Of a DNA stretch of 64,000 nucleotides, positions 12,193 to 30,781 are shown one piece after another; position 1 is the stretch's first letter, and each line of letters opens with the position of its first letter. A program made the translations under genes and the position numbers. The notes under the pieces were generated by a model. It saw nothing but the letters and a program-made list of their open reading frames with translations. It was not told where the DNA came from and made no database searches. The stretch lies in the IMG/VR virus record IMGVR_UViG_3300011013_000008, positions 1 through 64,000 of that record; one strand, written 5' to 3'. The DNA is from a virus.

Positions 12193-12264
12193 ATAATATG
12201 AATTTGAGTACACTTAAGGATGAGAGTACTTCAATCAGTTTTAGGAAGTCTACAGCAATATAAA

Positions 12265-12385
12265 CATACTCTGATAAAGCCGTGGTCGTAGGTTCGAGTC
12301 CTACATACTTACTTAGTAAGTATTAGCTCAGTTGGTAGAGCACGTAGTTACGTACTTCCTGTTCAAATAACTTTAGGTTCAGTTC
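12265..12385 (+). ncRNA. Y-RNA-like (YrlA-type) permuted tRNA mimic upstream of Ro
   Basis: Order is T-arm (GTAGG-TTCGAGT-CCTAC, 12288-12304), 3' acceptor strand ATACTTAC (12305-12312), loop TTA, 5' acceptor strand GTAAGTAT (12316-12323), then canonical D-arm GCTC-AGTTGGTA-GAGC (12326-12341). This is a tRNA cut open at the anticodon side and closed at the acceptor end. The outer ends pair: CTGATAAAG (12271-12279) with CTTTA and TCAG (12371-12375, 12379-12382). Bacterial and phage Y RNAs encoded next to Ro60 orthologs are known to contain such a tRNA-like module. The Ro-like gene begins within 60 nt. Confidence 0.75.
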
Positions 12386-12442
12386 AGCAAACAATATATT
12401 ATGTTAAATATAAAGATGAACCTGTTAAACAAAGAGATAAAA

Positions 12443-13843
12443 ATGAATTTAGTAAATGCAATCCAAAATCAACCAGCATATACAGAAAATGGTATGCCTG
12501 CTCGTAAATCTACAGCTAATGCATGTGTAGATTTATTCTCTAGCATTGGTGCGTCAAGAGGAAAGAATATAATCCCTCAATTTATGGCAGCTTATGTAGA
12601 AAATAGAGAAATAGCTTTGCGTATTATGTTATGGGCTAGAGATATTCGTGGTGGAGCTGGTGAAAGACAACTATTTAAAGATGTTTTAATATCTAATCTA
12701 CCAACTTATGATTCGGCATTACTTGCTAGTAAAATTCCAGAATTAGGGCGTTGGGATGATTTATTAATATTCGTAGATACACCTTTAGAAGGTAGAGCAT
12801 TTGCAACTATCGGAGCAGCATTAAAAAGAGGTAATACTCTCTGTGCTAAGTGGATGCCGCGTAAAGGCCGCGTAGCGGCCAAACTGCGTAAGTATCTTAA
12901 ATTATCGCCAAAAGCATATCGAAAACTACTTGTTAGTTTAACTGACGTAGTAGAAACCCAAATGTGTAGTAACAATTGGGATGAAATTAATTATGAACAT
13001 GTGCCATCGCTGGCCTCCGCCAGATATAAGAAGGCATTTGAACGTCATGGGCATAGTTTTTCCGCTTATGTAGAAAAACTAGCAAAAGGAGAAGCTAAAG
13101 TTAACGCTGCAGCTGTATATCCTCATGACGTTATAAAAACTATAGTTCCAAATCCCTGGGGTCTAAAAAGCCAAGCCTCAGAAACAGAACTAAATCACAT
13201 TATAGCACAATGGAAAGCTTTGCCAGATTATATGTCAGATGCAAAGATATTTCCTATGATAGATGTATCAAGTTCAATGGATATAGGTTCTTCTAATGTA
13301 AGACCTGTAGACGTGGCCATTGCACTAGGATTGTATGTAGCAGATAAGAATAAAGGTGTTTTAAAGGATGCGTATTTAACCTTCTCTAGAGTACCTAAAA
13401 TTAAAGTAGCTAAAGGTAATATTGTACAAAAAGTACAACAACTTGATCGTAGATTTGCTGAAAATACAGACCTAGAAGCAGCGTTAAAACTGTTGCTAGT
13501 AACTGCTATTAACGGTAATGTATCTCAAGATGATATGCCTAGTACTTTAGTTATATTCTCTGATATGCAATTTGATTACTGTATGGGTAAACCATCAGAT
13601 ACTGCAATACAAGCTATCAGACGTAATTATGAGGCTGCAGGATATCAAGCTCCAAATATTGTATTTTGGAACTTGCGAGCTACTGATAATGTTCCAGTTC
13701 ATTTTAATGAACAGGGAGTAGCATTAGTAAGTGGATTTTCTCCAGCTATAATGAAATCAGTGCTGCAAGCAGACCCTGGAAACTTTACTCCTTATGGAAT
13801 GATGTTATCCACTGTTATGAGTGATAGATATAGTTTAGATTGA
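12443..13843 (+). CDS. TROVE/vWA protein, Ro60-like (DUF2828-type)
   Basis: 466 residues from ATG 12443, which has AAAGAGAT upstream; in-frame ATGs at 12401 and 12416 lie at the end of the Y-RNA region and lack a good site. The N-terminal half has HEAT-like helical-ring motifs of this superfamily: ARDIRGGAGERQLF, GRWDDLL, CAKWMPRK, EYEHVPS-like NYEHVPSLASARY and PHDVI. The C-terminal half is a von Willebrand A fold with the metal motif DVSSSMD (MIDAS DxSxS) and FSDMQFD. Ro60/Rsr rings bind Y RNA and misfolded RNAs and, with PNPase, act in RNA quality control. The Y-RNA-like element directly upstream and the tRNA cluster support that role. DUF2828 is the closest family I recall. Confidence 0.8.
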   Translation: MNLVNAIQNQPAYTENGMPARKSTANACVDLFSSIGASRGKNIIPQFMAAYVENREIALRIMLWARDIRGGAGERQLFKDVLISNLPTYDSALLASKIPELGRWDDLLIFVDTPLEGRAFATIGAALKRGNTLCAKWMPRKGRVAAKLRKYLKLSPKAYRKLLVSLTDVVETQMCSNNWDEINYEHVPSLASARYKKAFERHGHSFSAYVEKLAKGEAKVNAAAVYPHDVIKTIVPNPWGLKSQASETELNHIIAQWKALPDYMSDAKIFPMIDVSSSMDIGSSNVRPVDVAIALGLYVADKNKGVLKDAYLTFSRVPKIKVAKGNIVQKVQQLDRRFAENTDLEAALKLLLVTAINGNVSQDDMPSTLVIFSDMQFDYCMGKPSDTAIQAIRRNYEAAGYQAPNIVFWNLRATDNVPVHFNEQGVALVSGFSPAIMKSVLQADPGNFTPYGMMLSTVMSDRYSLD

Positions 13844-15800: not shown

Positions 15801-15829
15801 TTGACATTTACTTTGAAATTTGATATAAT
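15801..15829 (+). promoter_or_regulatory. Sigma70-type promoter before tRNA-Tyr
   Basis: TTGACA 15801-15806, 17-bp spacer, TTGATATAAT with -10 at 15824-15829, followed by AGTTTTTTAA, shared with the promoters at 17766 and 23333. Confidence 0.8.
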
Positions 15830-15960: not shown

Positions 15961-16683
15961 ATGGTAAACATTGTAGGACTAAAGTCAGACTTAAATAGCT
16001 TAGATGAATATATAAATAATGAAGATATTCCTATAAACGAAGAATATCTTATCTATACAGGCAATAATAATAAGTCTAAATACATATTCTATGTAGTAAG
16101 TATAGATAGTAATAGTATTACTGTAAAAAATGCTACACGTAGTGATAATAGAGATAGTAATTGGGTTAACAAAATAGATCCAGTAAATAAAGTACCTTTT
16201 ATTCCTGTAATTGATCTAACTAAAAAGGAATTAAAAGAAATATTAATTCCTGCAGCGTATGATAAATTAAAGCAATCTGATACATTTAAACTATGTAAAA
16301 GTAATAAACAACAAGTTAAACAACAAGAGAAACCTAAAATGAAAATTGAAAATAAAATTATGCAAAATAACACTAAAGCGGCGAAGGCTGCTGCGCAGCT
16401 AGCGGCCGGTAATGTACTTAATAAAACTATTGCAGCAAAGGTAAAACCTCAACTGCCTATGTTTGTTAAAGGTTATGCAGATCATCCTCTAGCTAATGTA
16501 GTTATTGCTAACATTGCAGCTTTTGCAGTACAGAACTTTGCAGCAGATAATGCTAAAGCTGTATGGGCGTCTAACTCGATGATGATTGCCGCTATGGCAG
16601 AGTTTATGCAATCCTTTAATCTGGAAAAAATTGTAGATGAAGTATTGTCTAGCGTTACTATTCCTGATGAAGTAGGAGAATAA
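15961..16683 (+). CDS. Hypothetical protein, two-part
   Basis: 240 residues, ATG 15961 with AAAGG upstream. Residues 1-110 form a small beta/alpha part (YLIYTGNNNKSKYIFYVVSID); a Lys/Gln linker follows near 110-125; residues 130-240 are alanine-rich and helical (AAKAAAQLAAGNVL, MMIAAMAEFMQSF). The halves differ in composition, so it may be a fusion; the second half could oligomerise. Its stop codon immediately precedes the acceptor piece of the permuted tmRNA, so one transcript probably carries both. Confidence 0.6.
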   Translation: MVNIVGLKSDLNSLDEYINNEDIPINEEYLIYTGNNNKSKYIFYVVSIDSNSITVKNATRSDNRDSNWVNKIDPVNKVPFIPVIDLTKKELKEILIPAAYDKLKQSDTFKLCKSNKQQVKQQEKPKMKIENKIMQNNTKAAKAAAQLAAGNVLNKTIAAKVKPQLPMFVKGYADHPLANVVIANIAAFAVQNFAADNAKAVWASNSMMIAAMAEFMQSFNLEKIVDEVLSSVTIPDEVGE

Positions 16684-16748
16684 ATAAATATCATTGTATG
16701 AAGTAGACAATAAGTGGGGGACACGGCGGTTCGATTCCGCCCTACTCC

Positions 16749-16882
16749 AGCAATAAGTATATTGGCCACTTAACAGAAATATATGTAGAGACAGATAGAG
16801 TTCACTATGAAAAACCATTCTAGACAGCGTTAAGTACCAGACTATCTCTCCTTCTACGGGTTTTTAAAATATACTTATTACT
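16749..16882 (+). other. Intervening segment of the permuted tmRNA
   Basis: AATAAGTATATT (16752-16763) and AATATACTTATT (16868-16879) form a perfect 12-bp stem that extends the acceptor stem in the precursor to over 20 bp. It should be excised to free the 3' end after A16749 and the 5' end at G16883. Inside are hairpin-forming sequences around GATAGAG and CTATCTC. Confidence 0.75.
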
Positions 16883-16966
16883 GGGGTAGAACAGGCTTCG
16901 ATCTTCTAAAGACGATATATGGACAATGCGGATTAGTACACGTTATAGTATAAAATAAATATAAAA

Positions 16967-17005
16967 GCAAACGATGTTACTTTTAATATTGCATTAGCAG
17001 CTTAG
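16967..17005 (+). other. tmRNA proteolysis tag reading frame
   Basis: GCA resume codon at 16967, 12 codons encoding ANDVTFNIALAA, then TAG. The ends match the AND...ALAA pattern of proteobacterial tags; ALAA is the ClpXP recognition end. Confidence 0.9.
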
Positions 17006-17245
17006 GCCAATAATGCGGGGTTGCTAGGAACCTGTCAACAGAATCCTAGCACGATTACCGCATCCTCTGCTAGAGGCGCTAATTGGGCGTACACACCAAT
17101 CGAGCAGGTTAAGCACAATGCAACGTCAGAACTTGTGCTTAAGATATAGTTATATATCTTAAAAGTTTGGTAAGCTAAATAGCTAGAAAGAATAATAAGG
17201 TAGTTCAAAGTATAGTCGCTCTATAGGGAGAAATGCCTTACTTTC

Positions 17246-17402
17246 TATATTAAAACTAACTTAATTTCGCCAATATGGAAGTAATATTACTATTAGTGTT
17301 TGGCGACCTAATAGTAGCGAGTAATTTTATAGATTATCTCGCCTTAGCTGCTTTTGTCAGCTAATGTTATTGCGGAAGTATAATTAAGTTAGTTTTAATA
17401 TA
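17246..17402 (+). ncRNA. 157-nt RNA with four-way-junction fold, unidentified
   Basis: A perfect 20-bp inverted repeat (17246-17265 with 17383-17402) closes the element. Inside are three hairpins: CGCCAA/TTGGCG (17268/17300), GCGAG/CTCGC (17317/17338) and TTAGCTG/CAGCTAA (17344/17358). The result is a cloverleaf-like four-way junction with a long closing stem. No ORF. Its right end abuts the first base of tRNA-Ser(GCU), so tRNA 5' maturation would also release it. Confidence 0.7.
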
Positions 17403-17488
17403 GGAAGGTTAACTAGACAGGGTTCTAGGCTTGCCTGCTAAGCAAAGCGTTCCTTAATTGGGATTGATTTCGAGTATCAAGCCTTCCT
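17403..17488 (+). tRNA. tRNA-Ser (GCU)
   Basis: Class II. Acceptor GGAAGGT/GCCTTCC; anticodon stem CTTGC/GCAAAG with loop CTGCTAA. First 28 bases match tRNA-Ser(GGA) at 13959, implying a duplication with anticodon change. Confidence 0.88.
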
Positions 17489-17511
17489 CCAAATATAAAC
17501 AAGAGAATAAC

Positions 17512-18988: not shown

Positions 18989-19942
18989 ATGAAAATGTTT
19001 CAAAAATATCCATCAATAGAGCAATTCAGAACAGTAGTAAAATATGTAACTAAGTATGCTCCTGAACTAACTAATATAGAATACGAAGGTACAGTAAAGT
19101 TACATGGAAGTAATGCTGCTGTATTAGTTACTCCAGAAGGGGGAGTATTTGCTCAATCTCGTAATAGAATTATTGATATAGAAAATGATAATGCAGGTTT
19201 TGCCAAATTTATCTCAGATAATAAAGACTACTTTTTATCTAATTATTCTTCAACACATACAGTAGTAATATATGGAGAATGGTGTGGTGAAGGTATTCAG
19301 CGCGGAGTAGCTATTAATAAACTTGATAGGATGTTTGTAGTTTTCTCCGTTAGAGAAGTTGATAAAGAAGGAAATAAAGGTGCAGAACTTCTACCAAGTA
19401 TGCACAGTTTTGACCATGAAAAAATATTTAGTATTAGAGACTTTGATAAGTGGAATATTACTATAGATTTTAGTAAACCAGATAAAATTGTAGATACTTT
19501 AACACAATTAACACAACAAGTAGAAAATCAATGTCCCGTTGCTAGATTTTTTGGCGTAGAAGGAGTTGGTGAGGGAATTGTATGGAAACCTATTAGCGTA
19601 CCAAAAAATCTAAGCTATAGTTCAATGATCTTTAAAGTAAAAGGGGAAAAACATAGTACTAGTAAAGTAAAAGTACTTGTGCCTCTAACAGAAGAAGAAC
19701 TAAGTAAAAAGAATAAGTTAGCAGAGTTTATTGATATTGTAGTTACTGAAAATAGAGTAAAACAGGCCATTCACGAAACTAATGCTGTAGATAAAAAAGA
19801 TACAGGATCTGTAATTCGCTGGGTATTTAATGATATTATAAAGGAGGAGACTCCACTAATGTTAAAAAATGATATTTCTAGTAAAGAGATTAGGGCATTA
19901 GTTGCTAAATCGGCTAAAACTATCTATTTTGCATTAATTTAA
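18989..19942 (+). CDS. RNA ligase, Rnl2-like nucleotidyltransferase
   Basis: 317 residues. Motif I is K37 in TVKLHGSNA, the lysine adenylated by ATP. Later motifs: SRNRI near 58, IYGEWCGEG near 96-104, EGIVWKP near 206 and IFKVKG near 222 (motif V lysines). The C-terminal third is helical, as in T4 Rnl2. The enzyme would seal nicks in RNA, such as tRNAs cut by host anticodon nucleases. The gene is flanked by copies of the tRNA-Gly 3' end plus leader, suggesting insertion or duplication beside the tRNA. Confidence 0.88.
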   Translation: MKMFQKYPSIEQFRTVVKYVTKYAPELTNIEYEGTVKLHGSNAAVLVTPEGGVFAQSRNRIIDIENDNAGFAKFISDNKDYFLSNYSSTHTVVIYGEWCGEGIQRGVAINKLDRMFVVFSVREVDKEGNKGAELLPSMHSFDHEKIFSIRDFDKWNITIDFSKPDKIVDTLTQLTQQVENQCPVARFFGVEGVGEGIVWKPISVPKNLSYSSMIFKVKGEKHSTSKVKVLVPLTEEELSKKNKLAEFIDIVVTENRVKQAIHETNAVDKKDTGSVIRWVFNDIIKEETPLMLKNDISSKEIRALVAKSAKTIYFALI

Positions 19943-27667: not shown

Positions 27668-27973
27668 ATGAATAAAGGTAGAGTTATTGGTCTCCTAAAA
27701 CAACATGGAGATGCTATTTTATCATATAAAGAACCTAAAGGAACAAAAACAGTTAAGAAAGGTACAGTAACCCACCGGTTATGTACTTTAGACTTCAAAA
27801 ATCCCTATATTAAGTCTAGGACACGGGGTAATAAACCTTGGCCTAAGAATAAAACTGATATAGTTGTTTTTAGTTGGACAGATAATAGATATTGGATTCA
27901 TAATCCAGAACATATATTTAAAGTTCAACCACTTTCAGAGATACTAAATAATGTCCGTCCAAAACTATCTTGA
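27668..27973 (+). CDS. Hypothetical phage protein
   Basis: 101 residues, ATG 27668. Basic middle (KNPYIKSRTRGNKPWPKNKTD) and a WTDNRYWIHNPEHIFKV end, a pattern that suggests an SH3-like or small beta fold. Overlaps the ligase gene by 23 bases. Function unknown. Confidence 0.55.
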   Translation: MNKGRVIGLLKQHGDAILSYKEPKGTKTVKKGTVTHRLCTLDFKNPYIKSRTRGNKPWPKNKTDIVVFSWTDNRYWIHNPEHIFKVQPLSEILNNVRPKLS

Positions 27974-28916
27974 TAAGGCCGCTAGCGCTTATTATGAGGG
28001 CAATCCCTTCCTGTCAGATGCAGAATTTGATTATTTAGCCCGCATTTATAATTATAATCAACTCGGGGCAAAGCCGCTTAAAAGCGGTACACTGCCCCAT
28101 ATCAACCGATTATATTCCCTACAAAAATTTTATACAGGTGATAAGTTACCAGAATTAGACAATCCAGTAGAATCTCCAAAACTAGATGGCTCATGTATTA
28201 GTATAACTTATATTAATAATATGTTAGATTCAGTAGTTACTAGAGGAGATGGTATTATAGGCCAGGATGTTACTAAGAATTTTATAGGTTGGAATGGAAT
28301 ACCACAAGCTATTACATTCGGCTCTAATAATGTTATCCAAGTAGTAGGAGAGCTTATAGCTCCACTAACTATTGACAATGCTAGAAACTACGCAGCAGGA
28401 GCAGCTAATCTCAAAGATAAAGAAGAATTTCTAAAACGAGATTTAACTTTTATAGCTTATGCAGTATTTATTGGTAGTGAATTATTACAGTCTACTTATA
28501 GAGAGGCTATGTCTACATTAAGTAATTGGGGGTTCTCCACTGTACTAGACAAAGGTTTAGTAGATATCTACCCAACAGATGGAATTGTATATAGAGAAAA
28601 TGATAATACTATTTATAATCTTGCAGGGTTTACTGATAAATATCCTAAAGGAGCATTTGCATTAAAAACTACAGAGGATTTTGAAACAGTAATTACTACG
28701 CTATTAGACGTAGTGTGGGAAACTGGAAAATCTGGTAAAGTAACTCCAGTAGCTGTTCTAGAACCTATTGTAGTAGAAGATGCTTTAGTTAGTAGAGCTA
28801 CACTTAATAATGTAGGTTTTATAGATTCTATGGGAATGAAAATAGGTGATGAGTTATTACTTACTCGTAGTGGAGGTATTATACCAAAGATACTAGGAGT
28901 AGCTAATGAAACTTAA
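27951..28916 (+). CDS. NAD-dependent DNA ligase, adenylation subunit
   Basis: 321 residues: domain Ia (YYEGNPFLSDAEFDYLARIYN) and the adenylation domain with K77 in SPKLDGS, TRGDG near 97, GELIAPL near 145, DGIVYRE near 220 and the ALKT lysine motif near 242. An OB segment ends it (GDELLLTRSGGIIPKI). The zinc, HhH and BRCT parts are missing here and are encoded at 29271. A two-gene ligase is known from T5. It seals nicks in DNA using NAD. A GC-rich nested hairpin lies at 28065-28098. Confidence 0.9.
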   Translation: MSVQNYLDKAASAYYEGNPFLSDAEFDYLARIYNYNQLGAKPLKSGTLPHINRLYSLQKFYTGDKLPELDNPVESPKLDGSCISITYINNMLDSVVTRGDGIIGQDVTKNFIGWNGIPQAITFGSNNVIQVVGELIAPLTIDNARNYAAGAANLKDKEEFLKRDLTFIAYAVFIGSELLQSTYREAMSTLSNWGFSTVLDKGLVDIYPTDGIVYRENDNTIYNLAGFTDKYPKGAFALKTTEDFETVITTLLDVVWETGKSGKVTPVAVLEPIVVEDALVSRATLNNVGFIDSMGMKIGDELLLTRSGGIIPKILGVANET

Positions 28917-29270: not shown

Positions 29271-30029
29271 ATGAAAAAAGAAATAAATATACCAACCAAT
29301 TGTCCATCTTGTAATTCTATACTTACTAGAGTTAATGACCAATTATTCTGCTATAACTCTAATTGTGGAGTTAAGAATACTAAGAAGATCTTACACTTTA
29401 TTAAGGTTATGAAAATAAAAGGACTTGGAGAAAAAACTGTTGAAAAATTAGGTATAAATAGCATACAAGATATTTATACCTTAAATAAAACACAAGTAGA
29501 AGAATTAGTAGGTGAAAAGATTAGTAATAAACTTTTTGCTGAAATAGAATTATCTAAGTTAGCATCATTTGATAAATATCTTGCAGCCTTTAGTATTCCA
29601 TTAATTGGTAATACTGCTGGAAAGAAATTATCTGCTATTATTAATAGTGTAGATGAAATAACAGTAGATAACTGTAAAAAAGCTGGATTAGGAGATAAAG
29701 CCACCCAATCATTAATGAATTGGGTAACTAACGAATATCCAGAGTTTAAAACCCTACCAATAAAAATTACACCTGTTGCTAAACAACAAGAAGTAAAAGA
29801 AATTAATCTAAAAGTCTGTATAACAGGCAAACTTAATGATTTTTCTTCTAGAAGTTTAGCATCTGAGTTCTTACAAGGTAAGGGAATAACTGTAGTATCT
29901 GGAGTAAGTAAAACTCTAGACTATTTAATCGTAGAAGATAATAAACCTTCTAGTAAATTATCTAAAGCAAATAGTTATGGTATTCCACTAATAACTATAA
30001 AAAATCTAATTGAGGAAATTAATAAATGA
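29271..30029 (+). CDS. NAD-dependent DNA ligase, C-terminal subunit (Zn-HhH-BRCT)
   Basis: 252 residues. A four-Cys zinc finger (CPSC at 10-13 and CYNSNC at 27-32) is followed by helix-hairpin-helix repeats (IKGLGEKTVEKLG, FSIPLIGNTAGKK) and a C-terminal BRCT domain from about 178 (LKVCITGKLNDFSSR). It complements the adenylation subunit at 27951 to make a full LigA. It has its own promoter with almost no leader. It overlaps the next gene by 4 bases. Confidence 0.88.
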   Translation: MKKEINIPTNCPSCNSILTRVNDQLFCYNSNCGVKNTKKILHFIKVMKIKGLGEKTVEKLGINSIQDIYTLNKTQVEELVGEKISNKLFAEIELSKLASFDKYLAAFSIPLIGNTAGKKLSAIINSVDEITVDNCKKAGLGDKATQSLMNWVTNEYPEFKTLPIKITPVAKQQEVKEINLKVCITGKLNDFSSRSLASEFLQGKGITVVSGVSKTLDYLIVEDNKPSSKLSKANSYGIPLITIKNLIEEINK

Positions 30030-30781
30030 GTAATAACAAACAAACATGGACAGAAGATCGAGTAGCAACATTAGTTGGATTAGTTGGAGCAGACACTTCT
30101 GTTGAAGTATCCGCAGACCTTCAAAATACAGCAGCAGAGCAACTTGATGTATCTGTACGTTCAATCGCATCTAAACTTCGTAATCTTGAGTACTCCGTAG
30201 CTTCTACAGCTACTAAAAAAGTAGCTGCTTATAGTGCTACTGAAGAAGAAGAACTGCGTGCTTTTGTAGAAAGTAATGCTGGTATGTTTACATACGCTGA
30301 AATCGCAGAGCAAGTACTTAATGGTTCTAGAACTGCTAAGCAAATTCAAGGTAAACTATTATCTATGGAGCTATTTGAAAGCGTTAAACCTACCCCTAAA
30401 GTAGAAGCTGCTAAGCAATATTCTGATGAGGAAGAAGTTAAATTTATTGAACTTATGAAAAGCGGAGCATATTTAGAAGATATTGCTGCTGCTATGGGTC
30501 GTGAACTTAACTCTGTTCGTGGTAAAGCATTATCTCTTACCCGTGCTGATGACAGTTTAACTGTGCCTAAGCAGAAAGAGTCTCATGCTACAGCTAAAGC
30601 TGATATTCTGGCAGATATTGAAGATGTTTCTGTAATGACTGTTGCTGAAATTGCTGCTGCAATTGATAAAACAGAACGTGGTGTTAAAACTATGCTTACT
30701 CGTCGTGCTCTTGTTGCAAAAGATTATGATGGTGCTAAGAAAGCTGCTAAAAATGCTAAAGCAGCCGAAGAAGCTGCTTAA
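30026..30781 (+). CDS. Repeated HTH transcription factor-like protein (T5 D5-like)
   Basis: 251 residues with three related HTH-type repeats, each with an E-x-F/A-x-x-L then SVRSIASKLRNL / TAKQIQGKLLSM / ELNSVRGKALSL, and a fourth near TERGVKTMLTRR. The N-terminal WTEDRVATL is Myb-like. The C-terminus is Ala/Lys-rich. In T5 the D5 product is an abundant DNA-binding regulator in a similar place; homology is suspected, not proven. Strong codon bias towards GCT/CGT and a strong terminator suggest high expression. Confidence 0.65.
   Translation: MSNNKQTWTEDRVATLVGLVGADTSVEVSADLQNTAAEQLDVSVRSIASKLRNLEYSVASTATKKVAAYSATEEEELRAFVESNAGMFTYAEIAEQVLNGSRTAKQIQGKLLSMELFESVKPTPKVEAAKQYSDEEEVKFIELMKSGAYLEDIAAAMGRELNSVRGKALSLTRADDSLTVPKQKESHATAKADILADIEDVSVMTVAEIAAAIDKTERGVKTMLTRRALVAKDYDGAKKAAKNAKAAEEAA

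Follow-up and report, generated by a model that had tools for sequence, protein, structure and literature searches.

The stretch of DNA analysed here (hereafter the window, comprising bases 1-64000 of an 86,122-base IMG/VR virus record) contains a locus whose sequence supports its identification as a circularly permuted (two-piece) tmRNA gene carried by a phage, and there is a good likelihood that this gene, which lies inside the tRNA cluster of a T5-like phage, is functional. The Rfam model of permuted tmRNA (RF04321) matched positions 16692-17005 (+) over its full length, with a score of 87.4 bits against a cut-off of 47 and an E-value of 2.1e-15 in a search of 64 kb with 4227 families. ARAGORN independently reported a permuted tmRNA at 16660-17096 with the tag ANDVTFNIALAA, and together these two results bear out the original prediction of such a gene. 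Covariance models had also been proposed as a check. In addition to RF04321, which exceeded its cut-off, the alpha_tmRNA model RF01849 fitted full length (1-355/355) at 16641-17053 with 49 bits (E about 1e-12 to 1.2e-11), one bit below its curated cut-off of 50 bits, and the 3' hairpin with ACCUGgCAACAGAA that belongs to this model is present in the window copy. The standard tmRNA (RF00023), sought with both the Rfam models and ARAGORN, had no match anywhere in the window, where the order of the elements is reversed, and the reading as a one-piece standard tmRNA was dropped for lack of such a match. No T-arm partner was called downstream of 17005 either, so that neither of these signs against permutation, both named in advance, was seen.

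All elements of the gene lie on the plus strand in the order P2 3' strand, T-arm, acceptor 3' strand, intervening segment, acceptor 5' strand, P2 5' strand, tag and 3' hairpin; thus, as is characteristic of RF04321, the T-arm and the acceptor 3' strand precede the acceptor 5' strand and the tag. The acceptor piece begins with the 3' strand of helix P2 (CATTGT, 16692-16697), which forms 6/6 pairs with the 5' strand ACAATG at 16923-16928. It continues with a T-arm recognized in the RF04321 alignment (GGCGG-TTCGATT-CCGCC, 16725-16741, with a 5-bp stem and a TTCGATT loop) and with the acceptor 3' strand CTACTCC (16742-16748), which forms 7/7 pairs with GGGGTAG at 16883-16889, including one G.U at 3-70, the alanine identity pair in which U70 faces G3. 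The discriminator A73 (16749) is followed by GCA in the place where CCA would be encoded (16749-16752), so CCA is not encoded, unlike in most strong tRNAs of the window. The 133-nt intervening segment is closed near both ends by a perfect precursor extension stem of 12 bp, with the left arm AATAAGTATATT at 16752-16763 and the right arm AATATACTTATT at 16868-16879 (12/12 pairs); the loop between them (16764-16867) is an insert relative to RF04321, folds as an irregular hairpin and is expected to be removed. For all three helices (acceptor, P2 and 12-bp extension), the coordinates of the original prediction proved exact.

The coding piece is expected to start at the acceptor 5' strand GGGGTAG (16883-16889), with a putative RNase P cut at its 5' end, and contains the conserved GG-TTCGA element of the tRNA-like domain (16893-16899, RF04321 alignment) followed by the P2 5' strand. 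The tag frame (16967-17005), called by ARAGORN and aligned by RF04321, comprises ANDVTFNIALAA (16967-17002) and the stop TAG (17003-17005); it is full length and has the proteolysis-signal ending, with ALAA at the C-terminus. The 3'-terminal hairpin at 17015-17053 has a stem of 8 bp (TGCTAGGA/TCCTAGCA) and matches the 3' end of RF01849, its ACCTG-CAACAGAA being in RNA form (ACCUG-CAACAGAA) an alphaproteobacterial motif. At the level of sequence, a complete set of tmRNA parts is present. The end of the gene had originally been put at 17240, which is too far, as the alpha_tmRNA model stops at 17053 and the sequence past approximately 17060 is other structured or tRNA-like DNA outside the tmRNA. 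This adjoining DNA includes a long inverted repeat (AAAACTAACTTAATT / AATTAAGTTAGTTTT, 17250-17400, +) that encloses several hairpins (-49 kcal/mol) and sits between the tmRNA and a tRNA-Ser(GCT) with encoded CCA (17403-17491, +), which default ARAGORN missed and relaxed settings recovered.

When 36 distinct permuted tmRNAs of phages were compared, the G3.U70 pair proved invariant (36/36), while acceptor pairs 4, 5 and 6 vary in a compensatory manner with pairing kept. The P2 site is the same in most relatives, with compensatory changes, and across the 36 sequences P2 has a mean of 5.4 Watson-Crick pairs versus 3.6 with partners exchanged (maximum 4.1 in 1000 permutations). The extension stem, assessed in the 26 loci whose intervening segment reaches 50 nt or more, has a mean of 11.6 bp versus 5.4 for mismatched partners (maximum 7.0 in 1000 permutations); since the control sequences are related, neither permutation figure is a strict probability, and the separation of true from exchanged partners is wide despite this kinship. 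Among 3000 controls made by shuffling the letters of sequences from the phage set, 0.03% yielded a precursor stem of at least 12 bp. One of the 26 loci (L223) is without an extension stem; in several loci a short loop of 5-23 nt takes its place. The alignments to RF04321, RF01849 and RF01850 that were examined leave the extension stem out. The T-arm also shows some variation, being best drawn with a loop of 6 nt rather than 7 in five loci (L211, L214, L222, L224 and L229; e.g. GCGGC-TTCGAA-GCCGC).

The gene content of the record points to a divergent T5-like phage (Demerecviridae), the assignment resting on genes: an NAD-dependent DNA ligase split between 27951-28916 and 29271-30029, a D5-like regulator gene at 30026-30781, a T5-like polymerase with 46% identity to that of Serratia phage Slocum and a T5-like terminase with 51.6% identity to that of Vibrio phage vB_ValS_X1. 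Searches of bacterial genomes with the tag pattern and the T-arm pattern gave no match and thus named no host. The type of the tmRNA leaves the host unsettled as well, because the alpha-type tmRNA of phage Melnitz comes from a phage with an OM43 host (PMC9004378) and because phages of Stenotrophomonas and Xanthomonas also carry permuted tmRNAs.

Several other RNA-related features were observed. A sub-threshold match to the YrlA Y-RNA-like model (37.3 bits against a cut-off of 69) at 12280-12346 (+), with 12242-12360, immediately precedes 12401-13843, which encodes a phrog_850 'RNA-binding protein' (DUF2828/DUF7788). This arrangement suggests a Ro/Y-RNA pair, with the qualification that tandem tRNAs can imitate the model, and a PDB sequence search gave no match. 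In addition, an Rnl2-like RNA ligase and a polynucleotide-kinase-like protein (window 18989-19942 and L041 18554-19081, +) may possibly constitute a tRNA or tmRNA repair set.

The permuted tmRNA is not confined to the window. A search of IMG/VR with a pattern of the tmRNA 5' strand, followed by ARAGORN and then RF04321, gave counts that are lower bounds: RF04321 exceeded its cut-off in 34 of the 38 records chosen among the matches listed, thus in at least 34, and two of these records (L085 and L148) belong to T5-like phages related to that of the window. In a second sample of 50 metagenomic records, chosen among T5-like ligase relatives, a permuted tmRNA was found over cut-off in 10 and a standard tmRNA in none; as these records are mostly fragments, the resulting 20% should be read as a minimum. 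Throughout these T5-like records the tmRNA, by its coordinates, precedes the DNA ligase gene by 5.6-14.2 kb and shares its strand. Eight of the T5-like copies (L311-L318) exceeded the cut-off as beta_tmRNA and three more (L319, L320, L222) fitted this model below cut-off, while alpha_tmRNA was the best fit for the window copy and L224. Permuted tmRNAs were also identified in numerous contigs of IMG/VR, as well as in isolated phages of Stenotrophomonas, Xanthomonas and Synechococcus; for instance, Stenotrophomonas phage OR797040 (L333) and Xanthomonas phage PQ569993 (L335), both isolated and with gammaproteobacterial hosts, exceeded the RF04321 cut-off. The window tmRNA DNA had no match by similarity in the phages collection, no relatives of ORF 15961-16683 were found in viral contigs, and the DNA polymerase as a marker led to one close, short relative (L002, 51%) with no tmRNA match in its 10.7 kb. 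The T-arm pattern was rejected as a tmRNA finder, as it mostly retrieved tRNAs and standard tmRNAs.

A scan for the sigma-70 consensus identified a candidate promoter (TTGACA-17-TATAAT, 12/12 with TG, 15801-15829, +) upstream of both ORF 15961-16683 and the tmRNA. The ORF ends 8 bases before P2, and this closeness, together with the 12/12 consensus, suggests that the ORF and the tmRNA may share a transcript. On such a single, probably shared transcript, the 12-bp extension would cap the acceptor stem, the precursor stem continuing the acceptor helix beyond the processing sites. RNase P would then cleave before G 16883, 3' processing would clear what remains of the intervening segment, and the missing CCA would come from the CCA-adding enzyme of the host. 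The two pieces, held together by the acceptor stem and P2, would be charged with alanine. No SmpB gene was found in the 86-kb record, so the tmRNA presumably depends on host SmpB, and it probably serves in trans-translation. In concert with the host's SmpB and EF-Tu, it would free ribosomes that have stalled on broken mRNAs of phage and host and mark the resulting proteins for proteolysis, which may preserve rescue capacity while infection shuts down host transcription. For the cutting into two pieces, the charging and the use with host SmpB, we infer from what is described for the family (PMC11915505, PMC9004378).

Against a functional gene, it might be argued that the locus descends from a permuted tmRNA of a host and is now in decay, still recognisable but neither charged nor used any more. 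GCA replaces CCA, the model alignments show weak PK1 and weak inner pairs of P2, and the window copy scores lowest among the T5-like set over cut-off (87.4 versus 90-126 bits). However, encoded CCA is also absent in other phage members (e.g. L217, L225, L227 and L315), and the acceptor stem, G3.U70, T-loop, outer P2, ALAA tag, 3' hairpin and perfect 12-bp precursor stem are all intact, which makes decay improbable. Even less probable is a role as decoy or modulator, whereby the tRNA-like domain would occupy SmpB or compete with the host tmRNA, or the tag would alter the fate of tagged proteins, rather than rescue being added. Such a role would agree with the lack of a phage SmpB in the record and has a precedent in mycobacteriophage DS6A, whose tag-less tmRNA-like RNA inhibits tmRNA (PMC4131195, PMC11915505). 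The DS6A RNA has no tag frame, however, whereas the intact, full-length window tag ending in ALAA speaks against this role, and the T5-like relatives repeatedly show tags with LAA or AA at the end. Finally, although the gene sits among many tRNA genes, a standard one-piece tmRNA or a chance likeness assembled from tRNA pieces in the cluster has next to no probability, being contradicted by the model matches (none to the standard model, E = 2e-15 for the permuted one) and by the order conserved, with covariation, in 36 sequences.

A functional permuted tmRNA gene thus being preferred, its novelty is smaller than originally claimed, because permuted tmRNAs in other phages have been published (PMC9004378). 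For T5-like phages, the remark that no permuted tmRNA was known in this type of phage stands within the range covered here, as no tmRNA match over cut-off was obtained in T5 and five T5-like isolates and a partial search of the literature found no report of permuted tmRNAs in this group. What appears to be new, as far as we found, is that a permuted tmRNA recurs at the same place in a subgroup of T5-like phages. The known range of phage-encoded permuted tmRNA thus comes to include a family for which laboratory models exist, and the comparative set allows the structure of the unprocessed precursor to be studied. If the gene is functional, trans-translation would be worth carrying for yet another phage lineage. 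A more far-reaching scenario, which we regard as unlikely though worth stating, is that T5-like phages keep an old, vertically inherited permuted tmRNA locus with alpha-like and beta-like forms, that a phage-wide precursor hairpin outside the Rfam models fuses the halves for tRNA-type processing, and that phages may bring the permuted form to one-piece hosts and in this way help permuted ssrA to spread.

Among known systems, the alphaproteobacterial two-piece tmRNA (RF01849) shares with the window copy the gene order, acceptor stem, P2, a tag beginning with AND and the 3' hairpin ACCUG-CAACAGAA; the window copy differs in its score one bit under the cut-off and in the 12-bp extension stem of its 133-nt intervening segment, which is outside the model. 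For phages, ARAGORN was reported to make 53 two-piece calls in a phage database (PMC9004378), and 79 bacteriophage tmRNAs were included in the 2025 tmRNA database paper (PMC11915505). The permuted tmRNA of the marine methylophage Melnitz (MZ577097), published in 2022 and alpha-type in that paper's tree (PMC9004378), was confirmed here with RF04321 (113.4 bits) and is, like that of the window, phage-encoded, permuted and alpha-type. However, Melnitz belongs to the T4-like myophages and has a glutamine riboswitch next to its tmRNA gene, whereas the window phage is T5-like, no such riboswitch reached threshold in the window (Rfam), and CCA is not encoded in its tmRNA. The Stenotrophomonas phages of Menderavirus (e.g. 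OR797040), with an annotated ssrA that is permuted according to ARAGORN and RF04321 (118.5 bits) and lies in a tRNA cluster, represent another lineage, isolated on a gammaproteobacterial host. The beta-type copies L311-L318 (with tags such as ANDETFALAA) exceed the beta_tmRNA RF01850 cut-off with 91-143 bits, mostly encode CCA and in some cases have the acceptor GGGCCAG, all of which distinguishes them from the window copy; they share with it the T5-like genome, the position ahead of the ligase gene and, for the majority, the same precursor stem design.
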